Below are positions 2,583 to 26,339 of a stretch of 64,000 nucleotides of DNA, piece by piece. The number at the start of each line of letters is the position of its first letter. Positions within the stretch are counted from its first letter, which is position 1. Source of the stretch: Luteibacter aegosomatissinici (GTDB lineage: Bacteria; Pseudomonadota; Gammaproteobacteria; Xanthomonadales; Rhodanobacteraceae); the NCBI RefSeq assembly GCF_023078495.1, contig NZ_CP095742.1:3658001-3722000 (forward strand), in the 5' to 3' direction. Made by a program: the position numbers and the translations under genes. Under the pieces are notes generated by a model that saw only the letters and a list, made by a program, of their open reading frames with translations, searched no databases and was not told where the DNA came from.

Positions 2583-3012
2583 CGTCCACCGCCTTCACGC
2601 GCAGGGTGGTGCCATCGATGCCCGTCACTTCCACGGTGGCGCCTACCGGCAGGTCGGGGCCGTTCACCAGCCACATGCCATCGCCCACGCGCGCCTTGCC
2701 CCGGCCATTGATAATGGCGTCGCACAGCGTGAAGCGCTGGCCGATAAGCTGCTCGCCGCGGCGGTTAAGGCGCTCGTTTCCCGAGGGCACGCGTGCGATG
2801 CGGGGCCGCACGAACTTCCAGTAGGCAAAGCACGAAACAAACGTGAACAGGGCGAACAGCACGGCCTGAGCGAGCGGCCCGAGATCGGGCACCGCAAACA
2901 GCACGATACCCATGGCTGCCGCGGCGATGCCGATCCACAGCATGAAGTAACCGGGCATGATCACTTCGCCGCCGATCAGCAGCAGCGCCACGATCCACCA
3001 GATGTAATGCAT
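2575..3012 (-). CDS. NfeD family membrane protein
   Basis: 145-residue protein with two or three N-terminal membrane segments (MHYIWWIVALLLIGGEVIMPGYF and following) and a C-terminal OB-fold-like domain (GQRFTLCDAIINGRGKARVGDGMWLVNG), the short NfeD architecture. NfeD proteins pair with SPFH/stomatin proteins, and such a gene lies just upstream. Two in-frame ATGs exist; I chose 3012 because GGGGAGGT lies four bases before it, whereas ATG 3027 has no good ribosome-binding site. It overlaps the exporter gene downstream by eight bases. Confidence 0.88.
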   Translation of the reverse strand: MHYIWWIVALLLIGGEVIMPGYFMLWIGIAAAAMGIVLFAVPDLGPLAQAVLFALFTFVSCFAYWKFVRPRIARVPSGNERLNRRGEQLIGQRFTLCDAIINGRGKARVGDGMWLVNGPDLPVGATVEVTGIDGTTLRVKAVDVG

Positions 3013-3032
3013 GGCGACCTCCCCCATGGTGA

Positions 3033-3998
3033 TCAGCGTGCCAGCGGCGGCGTGCGCGGCGGCTGCGGGGCCGGCTGCACCTGCGCGCGCTGGCTGGTGA
3101 GCGAGTCCTTCGCCAGTTCGGCGATGCCCGCCAGCGAGCCAAGGATACCCACCGATTCCATCGGCAGCAGCAAGGTCTTCTGGTTCGGGCTCTTGGCCAT
3201 TTCCACCAGCGAATCCACGTATTTGGTGGCGATGAAGTAGTTCAGCGCATTCACATCGCCGCCGGCGATGGCCTGCGAGACCATGGTCGTGGCCTTGGCT
3301 TCCGCCTCGGCCAGGCGCTCGCGGGCTTCGGCCTCGCGGAACGCGGCTTCCTTCTTACCCTCGGCTTCGAGGATGGCTGATTGCTTTTCACCATCGGCCT
3401 TGAGGATGGCGGCCTGGCGGAAGCCCTCGGCATCGAGGATGTTCGCGCGCTTCTCACGCTCGGCCTTCATCTGCCGCGCCATCGCATCGACCAGGTCGCG
3501 CGGCGGCGAAATATCCTTGATTTCGATACGGGTGACCTTGACGCCCCACGGGTGCGTGGCTTCATCGATCACCGTAAGCAGCTTGGCGTTGATGGCATCG
3601 CGCTGGCTCAGGCTTTCGTCCAGGTCCATGGAGCCCAGCACGGTACGGATGTTGGTCATGATCAGCGCGAGGGCGGCAGCTTCGAGGTTGGCCACCTCGT
3701 AGGCGGCCTTGGCCGCATCCAGCACCTGGTAGAACACCACGCCATCCACGCGGACCACGGCGTTGTCCTTGGTGATGACATCCTGTGAGGGGACATCGAG
3801 CACCTGCTCCATCATGTTCATCTTGCGGCCGATGTTGTAGACGAACGGGATAAGGAAATGCAGGCCGGGCGTCAGCGTGCCCGTGTATTTGCCGAACATC
3901 TCCACGGTCCATTCGTAGCCCTGCGGCACGATGCGAATAAGCTTGGCCAGGACGATGACCGCGACCACGATCACGACCAGTGCGACGATGCTTCCCAT
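3033..3998 (-). CDS. SPFH/Band 7 (stomatin/QmcA-like) membrane protein
   Basis: 321 residues: one N-terminal membrane anchor (about residues 4-22), an SPFH domain ([31 protein letters not shown] to about residue 190), a charged Glu/Ala-rich coiled coil (about 195-260), then a variable tail rich in Pro and Gln. This is the stomatin/QmcA layout, thought to form ring-like assemblies in membrane microdomains. It is the first gene of an SPFH-nfeD-thrE cluster with 20 bases to nfeD, the usual SPFH-NfeD partnership. The exact cellular role is unknown. Confidence 0.9.
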
Positions 3999-4049
3999 GG
4001 TGCCCTACTCCCTTCGGCGTTGATTGACCGGGAGTATAGGCGAAGCGAA

Positions 4050-5441
4050 TCAGTGCGGGCCGGCGGGCAGCACCAGGGTCACGCGCAGGCCGCCGCCATC
4101 GCGATTGGCGAGCGCGATACGGCCGCCATGGGCTTCCGAAATTTCGCGTGCCAGCGCCAGGCCAAGGCCCGTACCCGAGCGTTTGGTGGAATAGAACGGA
4201 AGGAGCGCCTGGGCCAGCACGGTTTCGCTCATGCCGGGACCGCGATCGGACACATCGATCAGGCAATCGCGGCCGACCACGTGCACACCCACCGACACCT
4301 CGTTCTCGTCGCCACCGGCTTCGTGGGCGTTCTTGATCAGGTTGATCAGTACCTGTTCGATCTGGGTGGGGTCGAACCAGCCGGGTTGCTTCGGCGGCGG
4401 TGCACTGAGCTGGAAGCGGGCATGCAGCCCCAGGGCCTCCAGGAACGGCTCCCACGCGATCTCACGGGCTTGCGGTGCGGGCAGCTTGGCGAAGCTGGCA
4501 TAGCCTGAGATGAACCCGTGCAGGTGCTTCGCGCGGTCGCCGATGGATGCGAAGACACCCGGCAAGCGTGCAAGGTCACCGCGACGGGCCAGCTCGGCGC
4601 CCGAGTGCGACAACGAAGAAATCGGCGCCAGCGAATTGTTGAGTTCGTGGCTGATGACGCGGATGACCCGCTTCCAGGTATGTACTTCTTGCCGCGAGAG
4701 CTCCCGCGTCATGCGCCGGTAAAGCTGCAGCCGATGCGGGCGTCCCTGCAAACGGAAGCCACGCTGGGACAGGTGGAAGGTCTCCTCGCTACCCTCCATC
4801 TCCACCGTGAACAAGGCATCTTCACCGGCGGCGGCCGCAGCGCGCAGGTTCTCCGGCATGGCCTCGAGCACGGTGGCGAAATCGAGTCCCGCCAGCGTCC
4901 GCCCCTCGTTGAACAAATGGCGGGCGGCGATGTTTGCGTAGGTCACCTTGCCCGAACCATCGGTGAGGACCAACGCCACCGGGGTGTTCTGCACCACGGT
5001 ATCGAGCAGCAGCTCACGCTGGGCCAGGTTCTGCCGTTGCTCACGCAGGATGGTGCCCAACTGGTTGTGCATGCGGATGAGATCGCCCAGCTCGTCCATG
5101 CGGTCGGTGCCGATGGACATGCTGTAGTCGCCATCGCGGTAACTCGCGACGGCACTTTCCAACGCTCGCATGAGCCGGCGGATGGGCTCGACCAGCACAT
5201 GTGCCATCCATGCCGAAAGCGGCACGAGCAGCAGCAGGCAAATGATCAGTGCCGTGCGGGTATCGACTGGCGCCGAAGGCCCCGGGACCACCGCGTGCCC
5301 GGGGTTCCTGGACAGCTCATCGAGCCAGGCCACGGCCTGTGGGAACGGCCAGATGGCGACGCCGGCAAATACCAGCGCGCCAATGATCGCCGACATACCG
5401 ACGACGATGGCCATCCGACCTTCGAGCGAGAAGCGCCTCAT
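4050..5441 (-). CDS. Sensor histidine kinase (NtrY-like) paired with the sigma-54 regulator
   Basis: 463-residue membrane kinase. Two membrane segments (about 12-32 and 64-84) flank a short periplasmic loop of only about 30 residues, then a HAMP linker (85-140), a PAS-like domain (about 145-235), the H-box RVISHELNNSLAPI with the phosphorylated His at 265, an N-box IEQVLINLIKNAHEA, and the ATP-lid glycines DRGPGM and GTGLGLALAREI. HELNN is typical of NtrB/NtrY-type kinases that act on NtrC-type regulators, which fits the gene 13 bases upstream. The small loop suggests it senses a membrane-located signal. It is the last gene of the efflux operon. Confidence 0.92.
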   Translation of the reverse strand: MRRFSLEGRMAIVVGMSAIIGALVFAGVAIWPFPQAVAWLDELSRNPGHAVVPGPSAPVDTRTALIICLLLLVPLSAWMAHVLVEPIRRLMRALESAVASYRDGDYSMSIGTDRMDELGDLIRMHNQLGTILREQRQNLAQRELLLDTVVQNTPVALVLTDGSGKVTYANIAARHLFNEGRTLAGLDFATVLEAMPENLRAAAAAGEDALFTVEMEGSEETFHLSQRGFRLQGRPHRLQLYRRMTRELSRQEVHTWKRVIRVISHELNNSLAPISSLSHSGAELARRGDLARLPGVFASIGDRAKHLHGFISGYASFAKLPAPQAREIAWEPFLEALGLHARFQLSAPPPKQPGWFDPTQIEQVLINLIKNAHEAGGDENEVSVGVHVVGRDCLIDVSDRGPGMSETVLAQALLPFYSTKRSGTGLGLALAREISEAHGGRIALANRDGGGLRVTLVLPAGPH

Positions 5442-5454
5442 GGGTGAGAACGTA

Positions 5455-6789
5455 TCAGACCGCCAACCCGTAGCGCTCCATCCGCCGGTACAGCGCCTGG
5501 CGCGAAAGGCCCAGGCTGCTGGCGGCGCGACTGATCACGCCACCGGCCGTGGCCAGCGCCGCCTCCACGGACTCACGGCTGGGTTCATCCAGGTTACGGT
5601 TGGTGGCCGCCGTGGGCATGGGCAGGTTGAGGTGCGAGGGTTCGATACGGCTGCCCGCGGCCAGCAGGGCCGCACGCGCCATGGCGTTCTTCAGTTCGCG
5701 CACGTTGCCTGGCCACGCGTGGGCCAGCAATGCTTCGCGCGCATCTTCGCTCAGCTCGGCCTTGCCCTCCAGGAAGAACTCGGCGAGCGGCAGGATATCG
5801 TCCGTGCGCTCCGCCAACGGCGGCAGGTTCACATCGATGACGTTGAGGCGATAGTAGAGGTCTTCGCGGAACGTGCCTGCGGCGATCATCGCTTTCAGGT
5901 CCGCGTTGGTCGCGCTGACCACACGCACTTTCACCTGGCGGGTGCGGCCTGAGCCGAGCCGTTCGAACTGCCCGGTCTCGAGCGCACGCAGCAGCTTCAT
6001 CTGGCCTGGCAGTGGCAGGTTACCGATCTCGTCGAGGAACAGCGTGCCGCCGTCGGCCAGTTCAAAACGGCCCTCACGTGCCTTGTTGGCCCCCGTATAG
6101 GCGCCGGCATCCGCGCCGAACAGTTCGGCTTCGATCAGCTCGCCCGGCAACGCGCCGCAATTCACCGCCACGAAGGGACCACGGCGCACGGGTGAATTCG
6201 CGTGCACGATGGCCGCGATGCGCTCCTTGCCTGCGCCATTGGGACCTGTGATGAGCACCGGCACGTCGGAGCGCGCCACCTGGCAGGCGAGCTCGACCGT
6301 ACGGCTCATGGCTTCGGAGGCGAAAACCAGCCCATCCAGATCGTATTTGCTCTCGAGAGCCTCGCGACGGCGGCGGCGCTCATTGCGCGCCCGGGTCACC
6401 TCGCGGGTGGTTTCGGAGAGCTCCAGGAGGTTTTCAACGGTGGCGAGCAGCTTGGTGTCGTCCCAGGGCTTGGCGAGATAGTCCGCCGCCCCCGCCTTCA
6501 CCAGTTCAACGGCCGCTTCGAGATGGGTCCATGCGGTGAGCAGGATCACCGGCAGATCGGTGTGGCGCCCCCGGATGGCCTTGAACAGCGCCGCACCTTC
6601 CTCACCCGAGGTGGTGTCGGCAGTGAAGTTCATGTCCTGGATGACCACATCGACGCGCTCGCGCGCCAGCGTGGCCAGGCCTTCGTCGGGCGTGAGCGCC
6701 ACCAGGGGGCGGATATCGCGCAGGCTCAGGGCGAGCGAAAGCGCCTCGCCGACTGCGGGGTTATCGTCAATGATCAGTACGCAGCGCAT
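5455..6789 (-). CDS. Sigma-54-dependent response regulator, NtrC type, of the efflux operon
   Basis: 444 residues: receiver domain (phospho-acceptor Asp 52 in VVIQDMNF), AAA+ domain with Walker A GPNGAGKE (182-189), sigma-54 contact loop GAYTGA (229-234, the usual GAFTGA with Tyr), Walker B GGTLFLDEIG, and a C-terminal Fis-type helix-turn-helix (GGVISRAASSLGLSRQALYRRM). It should bind palindromic DNA and open sigma-54 promoters; one such promoter with palindromes heads this same operon. Start chosen at ATG 6789 (AGGGA four bases before it); ATG 6804 is also possible. A 60-base gap separates it from the last permease. Confidence 0.93.
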   Translation of the reverse strand: MRCVLIIDDNPAVGEALSLALSLRDIRPLVALTPDEGLATLARERVDVVIQDMNFTADTTSGEEGAALFKAIRGRHTDLPVILLTAWTHLEAAVELVKAGAADYLAKPWDDTKLLATVENLLELSETTREVTRARNERRRRREALESKYDLDGLVFASEAMSRTVELACQVARSDVPVLITGPNGAGKERIAAIVHANSPVRRGPFVAVNCGALPGELIEAELFGADAGAYTGANKAREGRFELADGGTLFLDEIGNLPLPGQMKLLRALETGQFERLGSGRTRQVKVRVVSATNADLKAMIAAGTFREDLYYRLNVIDVNLPPLAERTDDILPLAEFFLEGKAELSEDAREALLAHAWPGNVRELKNAMARAALLAAGSRIEPSHLNLPMPTAATNRNLDEPSRESVEAALATAGGVISRAASSLGLSRQALYRRMERYGLAV

Positions 6790-6849
6790 TTTGTCCCTTG
6801 CCATGGTGTCATGGATGCAGCTCCTCCCCAAAAGGTTGCAATGCCCATT

Positions 6850-8064
6850 CTAGCCACGGGTGGCCTCCACGGGGGGAACCGCCGCTGCCCGAAGGGCCGG
6901 GGCCAGTACGGCGGCCTGCCCCAAGAGCCATAGCGTCAGCGCCGCCACCGGCAGGTATCCCCACGGCAGGCGGGGGACCTCGTAGTGCAGCATGAGCATG
7001 ATGTTCATGGCGTAGGCCAGCACCATGCCCAAAGCGATCCCCATGGTCGCGAGGAGGAAGTTCTCGGTCTGGAAGTAACGCAGGACATCGCCGCGCGTCG
7101 CACCCAGCGCACGGCGCACTCCGATCTGCCGACGGCGTTGCGCGACCCAGAAGCTTGCCAGTCCGACAATGCCCAACGCCGTGATCGCCAACAGCACAAG
7201 GCAAGCACCCGTGAGCATTGCCGCCAGGGCGCGGTCGCTCGCGAAGAAGTCACTGCGAATCTCTGCGAAGGTCGTCTTTTCCGTGACCACGCGCCGTGGA
7301 TCCACCTTCTTCAATGCGGCAGCGGCGGCCGCCAGCACCTCACCCGCCCGTCCTGGGGCGGTGCGGATGACATAGCCCGCGCCGTAGGTCGGGACCATGC
7401 GGAAGGGGGTCAGTATCGCCTCGCCAATCGTCTGCCGGTTGCCTTCGGCACTGGCCAGCCAGCGCACGACACCCACGACACGATAGCCCTCGTCGCCCAT
7501 GTAGATGACCTGGCCCACGGCGCTCTTTCCCGGGAACAGCCGGCGTGCCGCCGGCTCGGTCAGCATCAGGACGTGCGGGGAAGCCACCCTTTTGGTCGCG
7601 ACATCATCAATCCACGCGTACTCGTCCGGGCGGATCCAACGGCCCTCCTGCAGCTTGGCTCCCAGCAGTTGGCCCGCGTTCTCGCCGTAATACTGCGCCA
7701 TGTCGGCGCGGGGCACCTTTTCACTGAGGTCAAGGCGGATGCCGGTCGTCCACGAGCGCCCGCTAAAAGGCAGCGAATTGATCGTCGAGGCTGCCTCAAC
7801 ACCGGGCAACGCACGCAGCGTCGCAAGGTCCGTCTCGGCCCGTGAGTGAATATCGACGCCCTTCCCCGGCACCGAAAGGCGAATGGCCGCGATACGGTCT
7901 TCATCGATACCGCTAGGCGTGTGCATCCAATGGAGCCGATCCGATACAAGAAACACCGCATTGCACACGATCGCGCACGTCAGGGCTATCTGCAGCACCA
8001 GCAAGGTCGATGTGATGCGATGACGCCGCAGCGCCGAAAGAATGGGTGCGATATCCAGGCGCAT
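6850..8064 (-). CDS. ABC transporter permease, type B, third pair
   Basis: 404-residue MacB/FtsX-type permease: an N-terminal membrane helix (LVLQIALTCAIVCNAVFLV), a large periplasmic domain, and three C-terminal helices with the cytoplasmic coupling segment VAQRRRQIGVRRALGATRGDVLRYFQTEN. There is no ATPase domain; energy must come from the separate ATPase at 14485-15201. It begins MRLDIAPILSALRRHR like the type B genes at 9366 and 11915, and much of the C-terminal half matches the 9366 protein almost residue for residue, showing recent duplication. It starts one base after the stop of its type A partner. Confidence 0.9.
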   Translation of the reverse strand: MRLDIAPILSALRRHRITSTLLVLQIALTCAIVCNAVFLVSDRLHWMHTPSGIDEDRIAAIRLSVPGKGVDIHSRAETDLATLRALPGVEAASTINSLPFSGRSWTTGIRLDLSEKVPRADMAQYYGENAGQLLGAKLQEGRWIRPDEYAWIDDVATKRVASPHVLMLTEPAARRLFPGKSAVGQVIYMGDEGYRVVGVVRWLASAEGNRQTIGEAILTPFRMVPTYGAGYVIRTAPGRAGEVLAAAAAALKKVDPRRVVTEKTTFAEIRSDFFASDRALAAMLTGACLVLLAITALGIVGLASFWVAQRRRQIGVRRALGATRGDVLRYFQTENFLLATMGIALGMVLAYAMNIMLMLHYEVPRLPWGYLPVAALTLWLLGQAAVLAPALRAAAVPPVEATRG

Positions 8065-8065
8065 G

Positions 8066-9376
8066 TCACTGGCTCTTCAAGTGCAGGCCAGGCGGCACCT
8101 GGCAGGCGCGCCACGCGGGAAACAGGCCGGCGAGCGACGCCGCCACCACCGATAGCACGAATGTCGTCAGCAGCATCGATATATCCATGTGGGCAAGCTG
8201 CGCACTGCGATTGGGGTTGAGGCGGACGAGCCCAAGCCCGGCCCAGGCGAGGCCGAGCCCTACGACACCGCCAGCGAGCCCGACGATCGCCGCCTCGACC
8301 AGCAGTTGGGCAAATATGTGCCGGCGCGATGCGCCGAGAGCCCGGCGCACACCCAACTCGCCTGCGCGGCGCAGGAATTTCGCGAGCATGAGGCCCACTG
8401 TGTTCACGAGGCAAACGACGAAGAACGCGGAGGCAAGCCAGAACTGCAGGCGAACATCGCCAGGCACGACCTGCTTCTCATCGAGCAGCCCCTTTACGCT
8501 GGTCAGTTCAGCGGGCTTCAACAATTCGAAGCGGCCCGATGCATGTTGGACATGAACATAATCATTGAGGTAGGCAAGGTAGGCCTTCACCGCATCGGCG
8601 CTATCCAACTGGACCCAGAACTGCAGCCAGGCACACGGGGCCGATTCCATCAGCGCCTCTTCCGTGCTGCCGGTGCTCCAGCACTGGATGCCACCGGCAC
8701 GCGGCAGCTGCGTGGCACGCGCCGTGGTCAAGGGCAGGTAAATATCCTCGGGGCTGGCGTACGCTCCGGTGTTCAGGTCGTAGAAGTGCGGCACGGGACG
8801 CCAGGGTGCGAGCACGCCAATGATGCGCAGCGACGTGTCGTTAACCTGGATTGAGCGGCCCACGCTATTAGCACCGCCGAACAGCCGCGCGTTTAGCGCA
8901 TCGCTGATGACCGCCACGTGGGCTCGACCTTCATCGTCCGCGGCCGACCAGCCCTGGCCAAACTGGAAGGGCGCACCGAACATGGGAAAGAAATCTGCCG
9001 AAGTGAACCTGGCGGGCATGATGAAGGGATCCACGCCGGGATCGCCCGGCCGGATGGTTGCCTCGCCACCCACCATCAGCGCCTGATGCGTGGCGCGCGC
9101 GGCGTGCAACAACGCCATCCCGTCGGTCCAGGTGAGCTGATCGGGGCGAAGCACTTCGTTCGATGCATCCGAGGCGCGTGGCTCGATGCGAGGCATATAG
9201 ATGCTGCCGCTGCGGCCAGGCAAGGGATCGCCATCCAGCACGTGAAGGGCCGTCAACGTCGTCATGCACGCGCCGATGCCCAAGGCTATCGCGACGACCA
9301 TCAAGGCGGTAAGCACCGGATTGCGGCGCAGGCTGCGCACCGCCATTTCCAGGTAGTACGAGAACTCAGTTCCCAC
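8066..9376 (-). CDS. ABC transporter permease, type A, third pair
   Basis: 436-residue MacB/FtsX-type permease without ATPase domain. The start (YYLEMAVRSLRRNPVLTALMVVAIALGIGACMTT) matches the other two type A proteins of this operon, and the C-terminal end has the conserved FLRRAGELGVRRALGASRRHIFAQLL coupling region. Alignment with its paralogues places the start at GTG 9376, which overlaps the end of the preceding gene by 11 bases; a more upstream ATG only adds antisense-like residues. It pairs with the type B gene one base downstream. Confidence 0.88.
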   Translation of the reverse strand: MGTEFSYYLEMAVRSLRRNPVLTALMVVAIALGIGACMTTLTALHVLDGDPLPGRSGSIYMPRIEPRASDASNEVLRPDQLTWTDGMALLHAARATHQALMVGGEATIRPGDPGVDPFIMPARFTSADFFPMFGAPFQFGQGWSAADDEGRAHVAVISDALNARLFGGANSVGRSIQVNDTSLRIIGVLAPWRPVPHFYDLNTGAYASPEDIYLPLTTARATQLPRAGGIQCWSTGSTEEALMESAPCAWLQFWVQLDSADAVKAYLAYLNDYVHVQHASGRFELLKPAELTSVKGLLDEKQVVPGDVRLQFWLASAFFVVCLVNTVGLMLAKFLRRAGELGVRRALGASRRHIFAQLLVEAAIVGLAGGVVGLGLAWAGLGLVRLNPNRSAQLAHMDISMLLTTFVLSVVAASLAGLFPAWRACQVPPGLHLKSQ

Positions 9377-10586
9377 GGGTGGCCTCGACGGGCGGAACAC
9401 GCGATGCACGCCGCGCGGGAGCATAAACGGCGGCCTGGCCAAGCAACCACAAGGCTATCGCGCCGAGCGGCAGGTAGGCAGCAGGTAACCGCGGCGATTC
9501 ATAGCGCAGCATCAGCACGATGTTGATGCCGTAAGCAAGCACCATCCCGAGTGCGATACCCATCGTGGCCAGCAGGAAGTTCTCGGTCTGGAAATAACGA
9601 AGGACGTCCTGACGGGTGGCACCGAGTGCGCGGCGCACACCGATCTGGCGACGCCGTTGCGACACCCAGAAACTACCCAGGCCCACGATGCCCAGCGCCG
9701 TCACGATGAGCAACGCGACGCAGACACCCACCAGGAGGCCTGCCATCGCGCGGTCACTGGCGAAATAGGCCGCGCGTACTTCGCTGTAGTGGCGCTTGCG
9801 CTGGATCACGCGGTTCGGGTCCATCTCGCGCAGCATCGTACTTGCGGCCTTGAGTACCGCATCACCCTGCCCCGGCTGTACGCGCATGACATAGGTCGCG
9901 CCGATGCCCTCACTCATGCGGACGGGAAGGAGCATGCTTCCGTAGGTGAGTGAGCGGTCCATCACGTTGGGTCGGGCCACATCGCGAACCACGCCGATCA
10001 CGCGCATGGGCTCGCCGCCGTAGTACAGCGTCTTCCCCAGCGCACTGCCGTGGAACAAGCGGTCTTCCATGAACTTCGTGATGATGACCACGTGGGGAAT
10101 CACCACATCCTTGCGACCGCTGGTGATGTCATCGAGCCAGGCATACTCATCCGGGGTGAAATCCCGCCCCTCGAGCAACTGGATGCCCAGCGAATTGATG
10201 AGGCCTTCCCCGTAGAACGCGGTGACGTGCATGACGGGTGCAACCACGTCCTTATCCAGCTTTATCCCATCGTTCCAGGACTCGAACCCGAAGGGCAATT
10301 CGTTGGCCAGGCTGGCATAACGCACACCCGGCAACTGCCGCAGTGCCTGCAGCGTTTCATCCACCCTGCCATGCATGGCGGGCGTGGAGCCAATGTTCAC
10401 CGGCCGCACCTCAACCACATGAGCTTCATCGATACCGCTGGGCGTGTTCATCCAGTCCAGGCGCTGGCGCACCAGGAAGACGGCATTGCACACAATGGCG
10501 CAGGTCAGCGCGATCTCAAGCACCAGGAGGATCGCCGTCACCTTGTGGCGCTTCAGTGTCGAGAGGATCGGTCGGATATCGAGCAT
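9366..10586 (-). CDS. ABC transporter permease, type B, second pair
   Basis: 406 residues, starting MLDIRPILSTLKRHKVTAIL. Same layout as the other type B permeases: an anchor helix, a periplasmic MacB-like domain and three C-terminal helices with VSQRRRQIGVRRALGATRQDVLRYFQTEN. The ATG shares one base with the stop of the type A gene before it (TGATG), so translation is likely coupled. A longer open frame reaches upstream to 11009 but that part only reads through the neighbour in the wrong frame. It is closest to the type B gene at 6850. Confidence 0.9.
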   Translation of the reverse strand: MLDIRPILSTLKRHKVTAILLVLEIALTCAIVCNAVFLVRQRLDWMNTPSGIDEAHVVEVRPVNIGSTPAMHGRVDETLQALRQLPGVRYASLANELPFGFESWNDGIKLDKDVVAPVMHVTAFYGEGLINSLGIQLLEGRDFTPDEYAWLDDITSGRKDVVIPHVVIITKFMEDRLFHGSALGKTLYYGGEPMRVIGVVRDVARPNVMDRSLTYGSMLLPVRMSEGIGATYVMRVQPGQGDAVLKAASTMLREMDPNRVIQRKRHYSEVRAAYFASDRAMAGLLVGVCVALLIVTALGIVGLGSFWVSQRRRQIGVRRALGATRQDVLRYFQTENFLLATMGIALGMVLAYGINIVLMLRYESPRLPAAYLPLGAIALWLLGQAAVYAPARRASRVPPVEATRGN

Positions 10587-11893
10587 CACGGACTCTTCAA
10601 CTGCAGGGCGGGGGTAACCTGGCAAGCACGCCACGCCGGCAGCAGGCCGGCGATCAGCGTGGCGCCAATGGCAATCGCAAACGTTGCGGCAAGCATCGGC
10701 ATGTCCAGGTGGGCGAGCGAGGCGTAGGCATCCGGCTGCTGGCGCACGAGCCACAAACCGCCCAGCGCCATCAGCAAGCCCGCGATGCCGCCCGTCAGGC
10801 CGATCATGCCGGCCTCGATGAGTAACTGCGCGAACACATTGGCGCGCGACGCGCCTAGTGCGCGCCGAACGCCGATCTCCGAGGAACGACGAAGAAATTT
10901 GGCGAGCATGAGACCCACCGTGTTCACCAGGCAAACCGCGAAAAATCCCAGCGCGAGCCAGACCTGGAGATGCACATCGCTGGGCACCACGTGGTTGTAG
11001 TCGAGCCATTCAAGCACGTCGCGCAGGCGGACATTCGGCGGCAAGTGGAAACGTCCTACTGCGACCTGGTCTTGCGAGTAATGGGTCATGAACGCCTTGT
11101 AATCGGCGACCCGGGCCGGATCATCGATCTCGACCCACAACTGGAGCCAGGTGCAATTGGCCGTCTCCAGTGCATCTTCCGTCACCTTGCCACCCTGCCC
11201 CCAACAATCACGTGAGCCGTTGCGCGGGCCTTTGAGGTCACGTGACGTGGTGAGCGGAATGAACAGCTCTTCCGCATCGGCGTAACTGTCGTTCAGATCG
11301 TAGAAGCGCGGGTGCGCTCGCCATGGGTCGATAACACCGACCACCTGAAGGTCCATGCCGTTGTAGCGTACGGTCTTGCCGGTGCTGTCTTCGCCATGGA
11401 ACAGCCGTTCGTTCAACGTCGTACTGATGACCGCGATTCGCGAACGCGCCTCGTCTTCCTTCTCCGACCACGCGTGCCCGTAACGCATGGGCACCTCGAA
11501 CATCGGGAAGAAATCCGCGGTGGTGTAACGGGCCCGTGCGAAGAAGGGCTCGAGGTTCGAGCCAGGCAGCTGTACCGGTGCGATACCGCCGGTCATCAGC
11601 GCCTGGCGGTTGGCTCGCCTGGCCTTGAGCAAGTACATGCCATCCTGCCAGGAGATCTGGTCCGGCGGCTCGCCCTTCGTGTAAAAGCCGTTGTCGGTGT
11701 CACGCGGCTCCAGCTGGGGGTAATACAGCCTGTGGCTCTTGCTCGGGATGGGATCGCCCGACACGACGTGCAGCACCGTCAGGGTGGTCATGCACGCACC
11801 GATCCCCATGGCCACGGCAAGCACCATCAGGGCGGTGAGGGCCTTGCTTCGCTTGAGGCTACGCAAGGCCAGCTCGAGGTAATAACCAAACAT
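10586..11893 (-). CDS. ABC transporter permease, type A, second pair
   Basis: 435 residues beginning MFGYYLELALRSLKRSKALTALMV, followed by a periplasmic MacB-type domain and a C-terminal FtsX domain with FLRRSSEIGVRRALGASRANVFAQLL. ATG 11893 is preceded by GGGAG at five bases; a GTG one codon upstream is less likely. It has no nucleotide-binding domain. Its end overlaps the start of its type B partner. The periplasmic part differs clearly from the other type A proteins, while the membrane parts are well conserved. Confidence 0.9.
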   Translation of the reverse strand: MFGYYLELALRSLKRSKALTALMVLAVAMGIGACMTTLTVLHVVSGDPIPSKSHRLYYPQLEPRDTDNGFYTKGEPPDQISWQDGMYLLKARRANRQALMTGGIAPVQLPGSNLEPFFARARYTTADFFPMFEVPMRYGHAWSEKEDEARSRIAVISTTLNERLFHGEDSTGKTVRYNGMDLQVVGVIDPWRAHPRFYDLNDSYADAEELFIPLTTSRDLKGPRNGSRDCWGQGGKVTEDALETANCTWLQLWVEIDDPARVADYKAFMTHYSQDQVAVGRFHLPPNVRLRDVLEWLDYNHVVPSDVHLQVWLALGFFAVCLVNTVGLMLAKFLRRSSEIGVRRALGASRANVFAQLLIEAGMIGLTGGIAGLLMALGGLWLVRQQPDAYASLAHLDMPMLAATFAIAIGATLIAGLLPAWRACQVTPALQLKSP

Positions 11894-11914
11894 CACAACT
11901 CCCAGGGGTGGTGA

Positions 11915-13135
11915 TCAGACGCTTCGCGTCGCTTCCACGGGTGACACCCTCGATGCACGCAGGGCCGGTGCGAACACCGCCGCCTGGCCGAGCGCGAGCA
12001 ACAGCACGATGCCAACACCGACATAGGTGAACGACACGCGCGGCATCTCGAAGTACTTCAACATCCACTGGCTGAGGCCGAGCGCGAGCACGGTGCCGAC
12101 GGCGACACCCCCCAGCGCGATCAGGAAGTTCTCGGTCATGAAGTAGCTGAGGATGTCGGCGCGGCGTGCACCCAGCGCGCGGCGCACCCCGATCTGCTTG
12201 CGACGCTGGCCCACCCAGAAGCTCGACAGGCCCACGATGCCTGCCGCGGTGATCGCGAGCAGGACGCCGCACACCACCGTCATCAGGATCGCCATGCCGT
12301 GGTCGGCCTCGTACGCGCTGGCACGGACCGTCTCGAACGTACGGATCCCGTACTTTTCAGGCAGGACGCGCATCCGGCTCACGGCATACAGCGCGCCGGG
12401 GATCGCCTTGAACACGGCATCCTGCTGGCCAGGCTTGGTGCGCACCATGAAATGCTGGTAACCGCTGTCAAAGCGAACCGGCATCAAGGTCACGTTATCC
12501 ATGTGGTCGAAGTCGGTCCAGGGCACCGTCAGCTTTTCCATGATGCCGATGATGGTGGACGGCTTGCCCTTCGAGTAATAGATGGTCTTGCCCAACGCAT
12601 CGCCCTTGGGGAAAAGCTTGTCGGCGATCGCCTTGGTGATGATGACCTGCGGCGGGGCCGGCGTGGTCTGCGGTCCCACCGTAACCACCTCGGACGGGTT
12701 GAAGTTACGTCCCGCGATCAGCTTGACGCCCAGGGTTTGCAGAGCCTGCTCGTCGACGAAGTACAGCGCGCTGGGCAGGCTGTCCTTGGTTTTGTCCGGG
12801 TCGACCTGGATGCCGGTGGACCAGCCCCCGCGACGCAGCGGGTAGGCATTCGTCACGTAGGCCGATTCGACGCCTGGAATGTTGCGCAATGCAGCCACGT
12901 CGGTCTTCATCTGCGGGATGAAGCTATCGGGCTTGCCCACGTAACGGTTCTGCACCGCGATGAGGTTCTGCTCGTTGATACCCGTCGGGCGGTTGGCGCG
13001 ATCAATGCGCTGGTGGACGATGAACAGCGCGTTGCACACGATGGCAAGCGTGAGCGCGATCTGTACCGCGATGAGGATAGTGCCGGACTTGTGCCGGCGA
13101 AGTGCGGCCAGGATGGGTTTGATCTGGAGGTTCAT
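11915..13135 (-). CDS. ABC transporter permease, type B, first pair
   Basis: 406 residues beginning MNLQIKPILAALRRHKSGTILIAVQIALTLAIV, a type B MacB/FtsX permease with the C-terminal segment VGQRRKQIGVRRALGARRADILSYFMTEN. It is the most divergent of the three type B proteins, particularly in the periplasmic domain, which suggests this first pair is the ancestral or a separately adapted copy. Twelve bases separate it from its type A partner upstream and 21 from the next pair downstream. Confidence 0.9.
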   Translation of the reverse strand: MNLQIKPILAALRRHKSGTILIAVQIALTLAIVCNALFIVHQRIDRANRPTGINEQNLIAVQNRYVGKPDSFIPQMKTDVAALRNIPGVESAYVTNAYPLRRGGWSTGIQVDPDKTKDSLPSALYFVDEQALQTLGVKLIAGRNFNPSEVVTVGPQTTPAPPQVIITKAIADKLFPKGDALGKTIYYSKGKPSTIIGIMEKLTVPWTDFDHMDNVTLMPVRFDSGYQHFMVRTKPGQQDAVFKAIPGALYAVSRMRVLPEKYGIRTFETVRASAYEADHGMAILMTVVCGVLLAITAAGIVGLSSFWVGQRRKQIGVRRALGARRADILSYFMTENFLIALGGVAVGTVLALGLSQWMLKYFEMPRVSFTYVGVGIVLLLALGQAAVFAPALRASRVSPVEATRSV

Positions 13136-13147
13136 GCCTGCACGCCC

Positions 13148-14455
13148 TCAGTTGGACTTCAGCTGCCACGCCGGCTGCACCTGTGCGGCGCGCCACGTGG
13201 GGTAGAAAGCGGCGATCACGGAAGCCGCGATGGCGGTCAGCAAGGTGAGCGCCACCAGCATGGGATCGATCGTCGCCAGCCTTGAAATGTTCTCGGGGAA
13301 CACGAGCCGGGTGCCGAGGATGCCAAGCCCGGTCAGCACCAGGCCGAGTACGCCACCGGCGATACCGATGGAACCGGCTTCGACAAGGAACTGGGCGTAG
13401 ATATCGCGACGCGATGCACCCAGTGCCCGGCGCACACCGATCTCGGGGGCACGGCGCAGGAACTTCGCAAGCAGCAGCCCCACGGTGTTCACCAGGCAGA
13501 TGATCAGGAAGCCCAGCGACACGACCAGCGAGATGGTCGATTCCTTCGGCACCACCTTCTGCACGTCCAGCCAGTCGGTGACGTTGCGCACCTTCACGTT
13601 GGGCGCCCAGTTCCAGCGACCCGCACGCTGCTGCTCTGCCGCATAGCCGTTGAGGTAGTTGCGGTAGGCGTCGACCTCCGCCGGCGAATCCATCTCGCTC
13701 CACAGCGCGAGCCACACGCACTCGGAGCGCAGGTAGCCGTCCCAGCCCTGCTCGGGTTCCTTCACGCAGTTGTTGTTGCCGTTGGTGGGTAGCTGCAGGT
13801 CGATGGCACGGGTGAACGGCATGTACACGGCGGCGCCTTCGTCGAAACCGCCCGTGTTGGGCACATTGAAGAACACGGGCTGCGGCGACCAGTCATCCAT
13901 GACGCCGACGATGCGAAACAGCCGCCCGTCGAGGTTGATCTGCTTGCCAACGCTCTGCCCGCCGTTGAACACCTTGTCATTCAGGGCCCGGGTGATCACC
14001 ACGACGCTCGAATGCTTCTCGTCGTCATCGCGGGTCCATGGGCCGCCCTGGATGAAGGGCATGTCGAACATGCCGAACATGTCCGCCCCGTTGGCATAAG
14101 CGCCTTCACGCATGGGCAGGCGCGACGCGTCCTCGGGGATGACCGACACGTTCACGGGGTAGACGATCGCCTGGCGGGACGTCTTGTGCGCACGGAGGAT
14201 GGCCGTGGCGTCGATATAGGTCAACGCATCCGGTGGCTCGCCATTTTCGATGTTCTCCGGCCCGAAGGCATCCAGCTGGGTGTTGAACAGCACGCTGGAT
14301 TTCTGCGGGATCGGATCGCGCGAGGTCGCACGGAAGACCGAGTATGTCGTCATGGATGCGGCCACGCCGAAGCCGATGGCCATCACCATCAGGGCGGTAA
14401 GCATCGGGTTCTTGCGCAGGCTGCGCAGGCCCAGCTGGAGGTAATAGGCGAACAT
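13148..14455 (-). CDS. ABC transporter permease, type A, first pair
   Basis: 435 residues beginning MFAYYLQLGLRSLRKNPMLTALMVMAIGFGVAASMTTYSV, with a periplasmic MacB-like domain and C-terminal FtsX helices including FLRRAPEIGVRRALGASRRDIYAQFL. I chose ATG 14455 because GAAGGTGG lies a few bases before it; the longer frame needs a GTG inside that site. It follows the ATPase gene by 29 bases. Together, adaptor, ATPase and this A-B pair form a complete MacAB-type exporter with the ATPase on a separate chain. Confidence 0.9.
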   Translation of the reverse strand: MFAYYLQLGLRSLRKNPMLTALMVMAIGFGVAASMTTYSVFRATSRDPIPQKSSVLFNTQLDAFGPENIENGEPPDALTYIDATAILRAHKTSRQAIVYPVNVSVIPEDASRLPMREGAYANGADMFGMFDMPFIQGGPWTRDDDEKHSSVVVITRALNDKVFNGGQSVGKQINLDGRLFRIVGVMDDWSPQPVFFNVPNTGGFDEGAAVYMPFTRAIDLQLPTNGNNNCVKEPEQGWDGYLRSECVWLALWSEMDSPAEVDAYRNYLNGYAAEQQRAGRWNWAPNVKVRNVTDWLDVQKVVPKESTISLVVSLGFLIICLVNTVGLLLAKFLRRAPEIGVRRALGASRRDIYAQFLVEAGSIGIAGGVLGLVLTGLGILGTRLVFPENISRLATIDPMLVALTLLTAIAASVIAAFYPTWRAAQVQPAWQLKSN

Positions 14456-14484
14456 GGGTGCCACCTTCGGCGCGGGGCCAGGGA

Positions 14485-15201
14485 TCAGGAGCGGGCGGTA
14501 TGGGCGTGGCCGTGCGCGTGGAAGCGCGGCTCTTCGGACAGGTCAACCACCTGGCCATCGATCACGTGTACGTTGCGCTGCGCACGGGCGGCCAGTTCCG
14601 GATCGTGGGTGACCATGACGATGGTGGCACCCTCGCGATGGATCTCCTCGAGCAGTTCCATCACGCCACGGGCCATCTGCGTATCCAGGTTACCGGTGGG
14701 TTCGTCGGCCAGCAGCAGGCGAGGTGAACCAGCCAGTGCGCGGGCGATGGCGACGCGCTGCTGCTGGCCGCCGGAGAGTTCCGCCGGGTAATGGCGGGCG
14801 CGGGCGGCCAGGCCTACGCGCTCGAGCGCGTCCATGATCCGCTGCTTGCGTTCGGCCGCCTTCATGCCGCGATAGCGCAGCGGCACTTCCACGTTATCGA
14901 ACACGTTCAGGTCGGGGATCAGGTTGAACGCCTGGAAGATGAAGCCGATCTTCTCGTTACGGATCTTCGAGCGCGCGTTGTCGTTGAGCTGGCTCACCTC
15001 GATGCCGTCGAGGTGGTATTCGCCACCGGTGAAGGTCTCGAGCAAGCCGGCGATGGTGAGGAACGTGGTCTTGCCCGAACCGGACGGCCCGGTGACGGCG
15101 ACGAATTCGCCCTCCTTCACATCGATATTGAAATCGCGCAACGCGTAGGTCTCGACAACTTCCGTGCGGTAGACCTTGGCAAGGTGGTTCATCTTCAACA
15201 T
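14485..15201 (-). CDS. ABC transporter ATP-binding protein (LolD/MacB type)
   Basis: 238-residue nucleotide-binding subunit that powers the neighbouring permeases from the cytoplasm. Visible motifs: Walker A GPSGSGKTT, Q-loop in IFQAFNLIPDLNVFDNVEVPL, signature LSGGQQQR, Walker B LLLADEPTGNLD, and the switch His in VMVTHDPELA. The spacing is that of the MacB/LolD/FtsE group. Start ATG 15201 (MLKMNHLAKVYRT) has GAGGGA six bases before it; the open frame extends 21 codons further without support. It is the only ATPase in the operon, so it probably serves all six permeases. Confidence 0.93.
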   Translation of the reverse strand: MLKMNHLAKVYRTEVVETYALRDFNIDVKEGEFVAVTGPSGSGKTTFLTIAGLLETFTGGEYHLDGIEVSQLNDNARSKIRNEKIGFIFQAFNLIPDLNVFDNVEVPLRYRGMKAAERKQRIMDALERVGLAARARHYPAELSGGQQQRVAIARALAGSPRLLLADEPTGNLDTQMARGVMELLEEIHREGATIVMVTHDPELAARAQRNVHVIDGQVVDLSEEPRFHAHGHAHTARS

Positions 15202-15232
15202 GGCATATCCCTCGTTGGAAAAGGTTGGGCGG

Positions 15233-16504
15233 TCAGCGGGCGATGGCGACGTGCTTGGCGTCACCGAAGGTGTCGGCGCCGGAGATGACGATCTTGTCGC
15301 CTTCCTTCAGGCCGTCCAGGATTTCGACCTTGTCGATGCTGCTGGCACCGACACGGATGTCACGACGATCGGCCATGCCGTCATTGACGACGTAGGCATA
15401 GCGGCCTGCACTTTCATCGACGAACGAGCCGCGCTGCACGGTAAGCACATTGGCGCGGCTATCGAGCAGGATGCGCACCGAAAGGCGCTGGCTCTGGCGC
15501 AGCTGCTGCGGGGACTGGCCATCGAAGCGCAGCCGTGCAGCGACTTCACCGTTCACCACTTCGGGTGAGATGGCGCTGACCTTGCCCTTCCATTCCTTGC
15601 CGTTACCGGTGATTTCGCCCGGCATGCCAATCGCGAGGTCGCGGGCGAAGCTCTCAGGTACTTTCATTTCGACTTCGAGCGCGGTCAGGTCGATCACGCT
15701 CACCAGCTGGGCATCCTTCGCCACCGTGGCGCGCTCGGCGATAAACAGCTGGCCGACCTGGCCATCGACCGGTGACTTCACATTGAGGTCCTCGACCTGG
15801 CGTTGCAGATCCTTGACCAGCAACTCCTGGCGATCGTGTGCGAGCTTCTTGGACTGGATTTCGAAGGTCAGGCTGCTGTTATCGATCGTCATGTCCGACT
15901 GGGCGTGCTTCTGCGTGATCGCCGCCTTGTCGAGCGTGGACTTGGCCTTGTCGACATCAAAGTTCGAGACGGCGCCCTTGTCGAACGCGCCCTGGTACCG
16001 CTTAAGGTCGCGCTCGGCGGCTGTCTGGTCCACGACGGCGTTATCGAATGCCTTTTGCAGCTCCGCGCGCTTCTTCGTGGCGTCCACCTTGGCCCGCAGG
16101 TACTCCACTTCCATCGCATCGGCGGCGGATTGTTCCTGGGCGAGCTTGTTGGTGAGTTCCGGGCTGGTGACGATCGCGAGGACCTGACCCTTCTTCACCA
16201 CGTCGCCGGCGTGTACCTGCATGACCACGGCGCCGCCGTACGGTGCGTAAAGCGTAGGGCTGACTGCGGCGACAACCTTGCCTTCCGCGGCGATGTCGCG
16301 AACGAAGGCGCCGCGGGTCACGGTGCCGAACGACAGGCGCGATGCACTTACCGAGGTATCGGCGGAGAACATCGTGGTGATCTTGGGGATGGAGAAGCCG
16401 AGCGCCACCAACACAGCCAATCCGCCACCGGCGATGAGCAGTTTGCGGTGGCGGTTGGGACGAACCTCGACGAGGCGGTCCTGCGCGGCGGTATCTCGGA
16501 TCAT
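15233..16504 (-). CDS. Periplasmic adaptor (HlyD/MacA-type membrane fusion protein)
   Basis: 423 residues: short cytoplasmic N-terminus, one membrane anchor (about 22-42, LLIAGGGLAVLVALGFSI), biotinyl-lipoyl-like half motifs (YAPYGGAVVMQVHAGDVVKKGQVLAIV and later LNVKSPVDGQVGQLFI), a long coiled-coil hairpin between them, then beta-barrel and membrane-proximal domains. This is the MacA/HlyD layout linking inner-membrane ABC permeases to an outer-membrane channel such as TolC; no TolC gene lies in the window. It is the first gene of the operon, about 24 bases after the predicted sigma-54 transcription start. Confidence 0.92.
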   Translation of the reverse strand: MIRDTAAQDRLVEVRPNRHRKLLIAGGGLAVLVALGFSIPKITTMFSADTSVSASRLSFGTVTRGAFVRDIAAEGKVVAAVSPTLYAPYGGAVVMQVHAGDVVKKGQVLAIVTSPELTNKLAQEQSAADAMEVEYLRAKVDATKKRAELQKAFDNAVVDQTAAERDLKRYQGAFDKGAVSNFDVDKAKSTLDKAAITQKHAQSDMTIDNSSLTFEIQSKKLAHDRQELLVKDLQRQVEDLNVKSPVDGQVGQLFIAERATVAKDAQLVSVIDLTALEVEMKVPESFARDLAIGMPGEITGNGKEWKGKVSAISPEVVNGEVAARLRFDGQSPQQLRQSQRLSVRILLDSRANVLTVQRGSFVDESAGRYAYVVNDGMADRRDIRVGASSIDKVEILDGLKEGDKIVISGADTFGDAKHVAIAR

Positions 16505-16537
16505 GGCTGTTTCCCTGATGAACTTGCTGGTGTCTTC

Positions 16538-16554
16538 AGCAAGCCGCGTGCCAA
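16538..16554 (-). promoter_or_regulatory. Sigma-54 (RpoN) promoter of the efflux operon
   Basis: On the minus strand TTGGCACGCGGCTTGCT matches the -24/-12 consensus TTGGCACG-N4-TTGCW at every fixed position, with the GG and GC elements ten bases apart as required. The transcription start would be near 16527, giving a leader of about 24 bases before the adaptor ATG at 16504. The operon's own NtrC-type regulator with GAYTGA is the natural activator. Confidence 0.9.
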
Positions 16555-16592
16555 CTGGGGAAATAGCTTTATTTCAGAGAGTTAGAAGCGCA

Positions 16593-16633
16593 TGTCCGCA
16601 CAGGAGGGGTGTCCGCGGACAGGTGTCCGGACA
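16593..16633. promoter_or_regulatory. Tandem palindromes, probable activator sites of the sigma-54 promoter
   Basis: Three related sites lie in a row: TGTCCGCACA (16593-16602, imperfect), TGTCCGCGGACA (16610-16621, perfect) and TGTCCGGACA (16624-16633, perfect). Their centres lie about 70-100 bases upstream of the predicted start, the usual place for enhancer sites of NtrC-type activators. Binding by the regulator at 5455-6789 is inferred. Confidence 0.75.
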
Positions 16634-16658
16634 GTGACCACTCGTGCCGTGGTCACTG
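16632..16658. other. 9-bp inverted repeat between the 187-residue gene and the sigma-54 operon
   Basis: CAGTGACCA and TGGTCACTG are exact inverted arms around nine bases. It lies 19 bases after the minus-strand stop at 16677, so it may end that transcript, although no T-run follows. It directly touches the palindrome array, so a regulatory role is equally possible. Confidence 0.5.
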
Positions 16659-16676
16659 TAGGAGCGCGCGACAGGT

Positions 16677-17240
16677 TCAGCCGGTGATGGCTACCGATTC
16701 GGAGACGGCGATATCGCGCGCGACGCCGCGGCCGAGCACGGAAATGGAAACCTCGCGCGCACCCAGGACATCAAAGCCGACGAGGCGGCGACGCTGGAAG
16801 CTGAGGACACGCGCGCGGCAGGCGCGCAGCCATTCGCGATCCGGGGCGCGTCGTTGCGGCGCGTCGATGGGGGTGGCATCGGCGAACAGGCCATCCCACG
16901 CGAGGTAGTCGGTATCGGGCAGGAGATAGATACGTGCGAGCGTATCCCCTTCCCCGCTGACGCAATCCAGCCATTCGCGTGGGCCCTCGGCCGTGATCGC
17001 GCACGTCAGGCCCACATAGTGGGTGGACATGAGGGGGGCCAACTCCGCGTTTTCCACCAGGCAACCGGCCGGCGGGACCACGTTGGCCGGGCAGATGATG
17101 GGGCGCGGGGCGAGGAAAAGGACCCCGCCCAACTGTCCAAGGCCTTCCACCAGCGTTCGCGGGGGAACCGCAAGCCAGCGGGTGGTGGAGCCATTGCGGG
17201 CGCGCTGCTGCACGCCAAAGGATGCGAGCCAACCGAACAT
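16677..17240 (-). CDS. Uncharacterised protein downstream of hemP
   Basis: 187 residues with no signal peptide or clear membrane segment; I do not recognise the family. Visible features are a tryptophan-rich opening (MFGWLASFGVQQ), a hydrophobic stretch GVLFLAPRPIICPANVVPPAG, the segment GPREWLDCVSGEGDTLARIYLLPDTDYLAWDGLF, and an Arg-rich stretch near residues 130-155. GGGAG lies 8-9 bases before the ATG. It sits 93 bases after hemP on the same strand with no visible terminator between, so it is probably co-transcribed and controlled by iron, and may help in heme handling. That role rests only on position. Confidence 0.6.
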   Translation of the reverse strand: MFGWLASFGVQQRARNGSTTRWLAVPPRTLVEGLGQLGGVLFLAPRPIICPANVVPPAGCLVENAELAPLMSTHYVGLTCAITAEGPREWLDCVSGEGDTLARIYLLPDTDYLAWDGLFADATPIDAPQRRAPDREWLRACRARVLSFQRRRLVGFDVLGAREVSISVLGRGVARDIAVSESVAITG

Positions 17241-17333
17241 GAGGCGTCTCCCGGTGACGGCCTGGAAAAAGATGCCTGGCTGGCGGCGAGGGGAGACCCG
17301 CGTGGCTCGGCGTCGGGGAGATGGAACCTGGGA

Positions 17334-17719: not shown

Positions 17720-18190
17720 TCAGGCGGCTTCCTGCATCTCTACCAGGGTCGCCTCGATACCTTCCAGGTCCGGGATCACGGCCGTATCGTCGCGCACCAG
17801 CACCCGGGCGCGAACCCCGAACGGCAGGTCGTGGCCGTCGTGGGTGGGCAGCAGCAGCTCGGCGTTAAGGGTGGTCAGGCGGGGGAAGCCATGGGTCAGC
17901 ACGGCGATATAGGGCATATCCGCCCGGTTGCCGATCGCCTTGAGCACCGCCACGCGAGGAGCCTGCGGTGCGGCATCGTCTGGCAAGCGGGCAACGTGAT
18001 CGAAACTGACCAGGGGAATCTGCCAGCCACGCCACTCGATACGGCCAGCGAGCCATTCCGGGGCATCGGCGAGGGCTTCCACACCCGTCAGGGTGATGAC
18101 TTCGGCCACGGCGGCATTGGGCAGCAGCAGGCGTACGCCACCGCTGGGGATCAGGACGCAGCGGATTTCGCGCGGTAACGGCTCGCTCAT
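17720..18190 (-). CDS. chpC: CheW-like protein of the Chp system (ChpC)
   Basis: 156-residue CheW-domain protein (VRLLLPNAAVAEVITLTGVE...WRGWQIPLVSFDHVARLPDD). CheW proteins bridge receptors and the histidine kinase; ChpC is an accessory adaptor in the Pil-Chp system that controls type IV pili in Pseudomonas. It overlaps chpB by four bases and is the last gene of the pilG-chpC cluster, the position of chpC in Pseudomonas aeruginosa. The sequence match to CheW is moderate and the name rests partly on position. Confidence 0.82.
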   Translation of the reverse strand: MSEPLPREIRCVLIPSGGVRLLLPNAAVAEVITLTGVEALADAPEWLAGRIEWRGWQIPLVSFDHVARLPDDAAPQAPRVAVLKAIGNRADMPYIAVLTHGFPRLTTLNAELLLPTHDGHDLPFGVRARVLVRDDTAVIPDLEGIEATLVEMQEAA

Positions 18191-26335: not shown

Positions 26336-26339
26336 TGCA

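Follow-up and report, generated by a model that had tools for sequence, protein, structure and literature searches.

The described systems closest to the locus treated here are MacAB-TolC, LolCDE, ADOP, DarBCD and BceABS. The locus lies in a 64,000-nucleotide stretch of the Luteibacter aegosomatissinici genome (contig NZ_CP095742.1, positions 3,658,001 to 3,722,000; the whole stretch is called the window below), where a single minus-strand run from 16504 to 4050 encodes an adaptor, one ATP-binding cassette (ABC) ATPase, six permeases, an NtrC-type response regulator and a histidine kinase. We think it likely that this segment is the core operon of a sigma-54 regulon for peptide efflux or envelope defence, switched by a membrane-sensing kinase and the NtrC-type regulator. 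Judged from sequence, the switch before the adaptor gene, a palindrome followed by a sigma-54 promoter, defines a regulon with many targets, not one operon.

MacAB-TolC is alike in its adaptor, ATPase, MacB-fold permease and TolC family, and it provides the best Protein Data Bank (PDB) matches of the adaptor and the permeases. However, in MacB the ATPase is fused to the permease, whereas here the ATPase is separate and the permeases form A/B pairs, up to five or more. Plain MacAB was rejected on these separate genes and on NCBIfam scores of 51.6 of 342 bits (MacA) and at most 215 of 966 bits (MacB). The MacAB-like export put forward in an earlier note on this DNA is apt for the MacA-like adaptor, but this is not MacAB proper. 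LolCDE also combines two different permeases of four transmembrane (TM) helices with a separate ATPase, but here there are an adaptor and a TolC, and the LolC, LolE and LolD NCBIfam cut-offs are missed. In ADOP the duplicated permease is one chain; A permeases match the N-terminal half of its model (TIGR03434) and B permeases the C-terminal half, but here these are two genes and the model's cut-off is missed. For the darobactin exporter DarBCD, DarD is the ATPase's best NCBIfam model and DarC matches the adaptor, but both cut-offs are far missed (79 of 450 bits for DarC, 256 of 375 for DarD). Bce-type kinases have two TM helices and a very short loop; as in BceABS, a type VII ABC permease is encoded here with a two-helix kinase, whose loop is short in most relatives but ~35 residues in the window, and BceAB and BceABS are among our fold matches. 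BceABS differs from the locus in that our model of permease A1 has the 4-TM MacB topology, and in the NtrC-type sigma-54 regulator, the adaptor and the TolC found here. A MacB review (PMC5985334) describes BceB as a single 10-TM permease and LolCE as a heterodimer, and gives PhoPQ control in Salmonella and E. coli; the word 'sigma' is absent from its text.

Sigma-54 enrichment of COG0577 FtsX-type permeases in gamma-proteobacteria was computed in 2025 and presented as 'first evidence' (PMC12316311). The link between sigma-54 and FtsX-type permeases is therefore not new in kind, and the earlier note's remark that such control is less usual for MacAB-like export must be tempered at this COG level. 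The sections of that study available to us do not single out an operon, palindrome, regulator, TolC or small peptides. Searches of open-licence PubMed Central text turned up no account of the present operon, its palindrome, the peptide family or the pairing of permeases, and no bacterial title occurs among the papers printing the palindrome letters in the matches listed.

The promoter claimed for the minus strand at 16554-16538 can be read directly in the sequence: it has the form TTGGCACG-N4-TTGC, with GG at -24, GC at -12 and the fixed spacing between them. The motif TGGCACRNNNNTTGCW is found once in the window, and 100 shuffles give a mean of 0.04. The loose core TGGC-N7-TTGC was rejected as evidence, since 7 occurrences in the window against 4.1 expected are not significant alone. 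Three TGTCCG/CGGACA palindromes are also present where the earlier note placed them, with centres ~70-100 bp upstream of a start set ~12 bp after the -12 element. The exact 12-mer TGTCCGCGGACA occurs in four places in the 4.99-Mb genome and a reversed control pattern in none. The same genome encodes rpoN. A scan of 2900-17300 for sigma-70 promoters and terminators yielded no more than in shuffles. In window coordinates, the features of the segment are:

16593..16633, no strand assigned: regulator-site cluster, with TGTCCGGACA at 16624-16633, TGTCCGCGGACA at 16610-16621 and the imperfect TGTGCGGACA at 16593-16602
16538..16554, minus: sigma-54 -24/-12 promoter TTGGCACGCGGCTTGCT (sequence; conserved before adaptor orthologues)
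15233..16504, minus: periplasmic adaptor, HlyD/RND_mfp type, MacA-like (Pfam; NCBIfam RND_mfp above cut-off; PDB MacA 5nik, E 2.8e-12)
14485..15201, minus: separate ABC ATPase, LolD/MacB/DarD type (Pfam, NCBIfam; start taken as the ATG at 15201, the open reading frame itself reaching 15264)
13148..14455, minus: permease A1, FtsX plus MacB_PCD (domains, tree, AlphaFold model)
11915..13135, minus: permease B1 (domains, tree, PDB comparison)
10586..11893, minus: permease A2 (domains, tree)
9366..10586, minus: permease B2, start overlapping the A2 stop (domains, tree; longer mechanical reading frame set aside)
8066..9376, minus: permease A3 (domains, tree; GTG chosen as start)
6850..8064, minus: permease B3 (domains, tree; matches the C-terminal half of the ADOP model)
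6812..6839, minus: extracytoplasmic function (ECF)-like promoter element GCAACC-N15-GCATCCA, directly before the regulator gene (conservation in two families)
5455..6804, minus: NtrC-type response regulator, GAYTGA loop, Fis helix-turn-helix (Pfam; ATG at 6804 chosen)
4050..5441, minus: sensor histidine kinase, two TM helices, HATPase (Pfam; PAS-like stretch under the Pfam cut-off)

Pfam domains bear out the gene order first proposed, with a MacA-type adaptor at the head and the NtrC-type regulator and kinase at the end. Each of the six FtsX/MacB-type permeases between adaptor and regulator has an FtsX and a MacB_PCD domain, and none carries a fused ATPase; these permeases and the separate ATPase go unmentioned in the earlier note. 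From their spacing, the genes from adaptor to kinase would form one transcript.

The switch is conserved in relatives, the check that the earlier note itself had proposed. We searched 299 genomes of the order and found an adaptor homologue (E 1e-20 or better) in 210. A sigma-54 core and the exact TGTCCGCGGACA precede the gene at all 30 of the best adaptor loci (window included; the thirtieth is cut by a contig end). Across 40 operon loci sampled more widely, with four genomes shared with the set of 30, TGGC-N8-TGC occurs at 39, the exact palindrome at 22 and some form of TGTCC-N0-4-GGACA at 26, with 0-8 half-sites per 260 bp versus a background of 0.48. One locus of this set (L086) has neither promoter nor palindrome element. 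Promoters of the Xanthomonadaceae-type family (f2) have CTGC or GTGC as the -12 element, so a TTGC requirement misses them. Of 5560 random 118-bp stretches of the examined loci, 61 contain TGGCA[CT]-N6-TGC. The spacing between palindrome and promoter clusters at 45-47, 55-57, 64-70, 75-81 and 87-91 bp, in steps of about one helical turn; this grouping draws on 100 distinct sequences and is inflated by related genomes.

Presence of the palindrome also follows presence of the adaptor. Among 35 chosen genomes, it occurs in 15 of 21 with an adaptor versus 1 of 14 without; 3 of the 15 have only coreless copies, so a fair count is 12 of 21. It is absent from all 13 adaptor-less genomes outside the window's own family. 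The sole adaptor-less positive (G090) belongs to that family, and there the switch (L302) precedes the kinase's last 57 residues (84.7% identity), as though a natural deletion had removed everything else in the operon.

How far does the switch reach beyond the operon? In the window's own genome, all four exact palindromes are followed, 47-90 bp on, by a TGGC-N7-TTGC sigma-54 core. They stand before the operon, a TolC paralogue, two adjoining genes for tiny membrane peptides and the gene for an M61-like exported protein of 449 residues. The window's operon itself has no TolC gene, and the TolC paralogue is under the same switch in the genus; a second TolC, 46% identical to the switch-bearing paralogue, is encoded elsewhere in the genome. 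In two Roseateles loci a TolC gene sits between ATPase and permease, and coordinates put it in the same place in genus g9. The efflux gene set of the earlier note is present, but its switch recurs before many loci.

Fourteen further genomes of the genus contributed 51 sites, after exclusion of ten at already located adaptor genes (own included). A sigma-54 core (TGGC-N8-TGC) is found at 47 of these and the stricter TGGCA[CT]-N6-TGC at 41; the sites without a core are L154, L157, L161 and L172. The first gene after the 47 cored sites encodes a small peptide (23), an A-type permease (10), a TolC paralogue (5), an adaptor (4), an M61-like protein (3) or something else (2), with L150 a poor match. 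Outside the genus, of 15 non-adaptor palindromes examined, the eight with a core precede small peptides (4), a permease, an M3 peptidase, a DUF885 protein and the kinase remnant at L302. A GTDB scan for the palindrome plus TGGCACG, with one genome per species, returned at least 119 stretches. The matches listed comprise 64 adaptors, 21 small peptides (a class assigned by our own sequence rule), 7 A-type permeases, 1 ATPase and 26 others, and an adaptor, ATPase, A-type permease or tiny membrane-peptide gene is next in 94 of 119. One of the 26 others (L293) is an adaptor start cut at a contig end, and several have no -12 element and appear chance-like. Hosts among the matches listed include Xanthomonas, Stenotrophomonas, Dyella, Rhodanobacter, Luteibacter, Roseateles, Shewanella and Glaciecola.

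Pfam finds nothing in the M61-like protein, which matches the M61 aminopeptidase 7xyo with E 2.1e-12 by profile and 7.8e-25 by fold (model predicted local distance difference test, pLDDT, 87.5). M3 peptidase, DUF885 and alpha/beta-hydrolase proteins are single-genome targets. Because the M3 peptidase, DUF885 and M61-like targets form a peptide-handling set, we propose peptides as the stimulus or the cargo. Further single-genome candidates under the switch are a DUF418 fragment (L141), an alpha/beta hydrolase (L188) and a DUF4440 protein (L199).

The tiny membrane peptides take three forms, of 27, ~64-70 and 43 residues, and share MKxExxxL and one hydrophobic stretch. Ratios of nonsynonymous to synonymous polymorphism (pN/pS) are 0.43, 0.55 and 0.48 for the three sets, and the genes are therefore coding. 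For the 67-residue form there are 148 homologues, of which 120 are listed; they lack Pfam domains, and those with a name are called 'hypothetical'. Of the 120 listed, 111 carry a two-cysteine C-terminal loop (CxLPxDGVxC), most commonly CALPPDGVVC. Genes for the 43-residue form (L135, L137, L138, L160, L162, L176, L177, L178, L181) are multi-copy per genome with the same promoter, and their products end in short alanine-rich tails (LIASAR, VAAAR), with an AxA-like site before the tail in some.

The permeases in the window follow a strict A-B-A-B-A-B order. The A-B order holds throughout 39 tabulated loci, with one to five pairs in operons followed as far as the regulator gene and at least five pairs in six that were not; matches below 150 bits were dropped from the table, for example an extra weak B-like gene in L068. 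In a tree of 167 permeases, the split between A and B has a support of 100. Patristic distances of A and B partners correlate with r 0.87 over 83 pairs, whereas 300 shuffles of the partners within operons average 0.30 and never exceed 0.47. Because A and B are separate clades with co-evolving partners, they are probably heterodimers that share one ATPase. In multi-pair operons, 58 of 59 A and 55 of 58 B permeases are most closely related to a permease of another genome, and most of the duplications are therefore old; the exceptions include B2 and B3 of the window. The A1 AlphaFold model (pLDDT 88.3) has its best PDB fold match in MacB (5gko, E 1.2e-18), followed by LolC/LolE, YbbAP and BceAB.

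The receiver, AAA+ sigma-54 and Fis helix-turn-helix domains of the regulator are all above the Pfam cut-off. The GAFTGA loop of sigma-54 activators tolerates Y; GAYTGA is found in the window's regulator and 25 of 27 relatives, GAFTGA in one and GAYTSA in one. In relatives a GAYTGA regulator and kinase also lie downstream of the pump genes, and a regulator and kinase do so in Shewanella corallii and Glaciecola too. Of 22 relatives, 19 have a kinase loop of at most 15 residues between the helices and three have one of 21-32, which leaves little room for a ligand domain. Directly before the regulator, AACC-N16-CATCC or a close form, which we take to be an ECF-type promoter, occurs at 12 of 13 loci of families f1 and f3, which are the own family and one other, and at 0 of 14 of f2, with a background of 0.016 per 210 bp. 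The full element occurs in 6 places in the window's genome, one being 6812-6839; another near-identical copy precedes a gene for an exported DUF4097/DUF2807 protein (G000:C1:3922200).

In the reading we prefer, the kinase, with its two membrane helices and short periplasmic loop, would react when the membrane or a membrane partner is disturbed and then phosphorylate the NtrC-type regulator. The regulator would then bind the TGTCCG/CGGACA palindromes and activate RpoN polymerase at TTGGCACG-N4-NTGC promoters. The output would be a tripartite exporter of the adaptor, one ATPase, several heterodimeric A/B permeases and a TolC, with the TolC paralogue, extra permeases, the inactive-looking M61-type protein, hydrolases and tiny membrane peptides switched on at other loci. 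Regulator and kinase would raise their own expression. The likely task is to rid the periplasm and membrane of peptides or comparable amphiphiles.

Several observations weigh against this account. The exact palindrome is missing at 18 of the 40 wider adaptor loci and any TGTCC-N0-4-GGACA at 14, and 7 of the 15 non-adaptor palindromes outside the genus have no nearby sigma-54 core. HExxH is absent in all 21 M61-like family proteins found, so not every target is a working peptidase. By hydropathy, the loop of the window's kinase is ~35 residues, longer than in most relatives. The positive-feedback loop of the earlier note agrees with the position of regulator and kinase behind the pump in relatives, but it may not be closed: both proteins may also be made independently through the ECF-like element, a second input into the loop. 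Finally, the genome encodes 9 full sigma-54 activators, and another of these could bind the palindrome. So, is the palindrome another activator's site, or a general enhancer, with the operon's own regulator acting elsewhere? The adaptor promoters without a palindrome would suit that idea, but the palindrome co-occurs with the adaptor across genomes, most relatives' regulators share the helix SRQALYRR, which is unlike the other activators with readable ends (5/8), and the adaptor-less G090 retains the switch before its kinase remnant. We consider it very improbable.

What the tiny peptides do bears on the purpose of the whole system. They may act as AcrZ-like subunits or as partners of the kinase, adjusting the pump or sensing on the kinase's behalf, a tentative and somewhat unlikely role for which AcrZ is a precedent (PMC7267776); a single predicted helix, co-regulation, lengths of 27-70 residues and coding conservation are consistent with it, but it has no need of a conserved C-terminal cysteine loop outside the helix. 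If they were instead the exporter's cargo, with the loop released and exported by the A/B permeases, the system would serve secretion or signalling, not defence. Peptides and exporter share a switch, some genomes hold several peptide copies, the 67-residue form joins a conserved hydrophobic N-terminal helix through a variable linker to that conserved loop, and the ATPase scores best, under cut-off, against the darobactin-exporter model DarD. But Xanthomonas and Stenotrophomonas have the pump and switch with no peptide gene before the adaptor among the matches listed, the 27-residue form hardly exceeds a membrane helix, and no protease or maturation enzyme is fixed beside the peptide genes, which makes a cargo role quite unlikely. 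Upkeep of lipids or lipoproteins in the manner of LolCDE, with the regulon answering general envelope stress, would fit the LolC/LolE/LolF fold of the permeases, the ECF-like element and the link of sigma-54 to the bacterial exterior made in PMC3162934. It too is unlikely, since Lol cut-offs are missed, Lol systems lack the adaptor and TolC present here, and the periplasmic peptidase-like targets fit peptides better. Rather doubtful, finally, is a sigma-54 Gram-negative counterpart of Bce-type flux sensing, in which a kinase without a ligand domain would read the A/B permeases or the tiny peptides, and permease pairs would multiply, widening the peptide range served by one ATPase and adaptor; in that case the pump, or a self-made cysteine-loop peptide, would be the sensor.

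A peptide-efflux regulon under the operon's own kinase and regulator would mean that a dedicated two-component sigma-54 activator serves a multi-locus, peptide-efflux-like gene set that extends from Luteibacter to Xanthomonas, Stenotrophomonas, Roseateles, Shewanella and Glaciecola. A permease design with one to five or more co-evolving A/B pairs per ATPase comes with it, as do membrane-peptide families that escape every Pfam model. The DNA switch is specific enough for a search of any genome of the group to turn up further members, and the sensing gene product and exported substrate become testable questions.

Two neighbours of the operon may be mentioned. A Band_7/SPFH protein gene (3033-3998, minus strand) begins ~50 bp past the kinase gene on the same strand, and co-transcription is possible. 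Upstream of the operon, at 17720-26431 (minus strand), lies a chemosensory cluster with CheW, a CheB-type protein and a 2178-residue protein that combines Hpt domains, a CheA-like kinase, and CheW and receiver domains.

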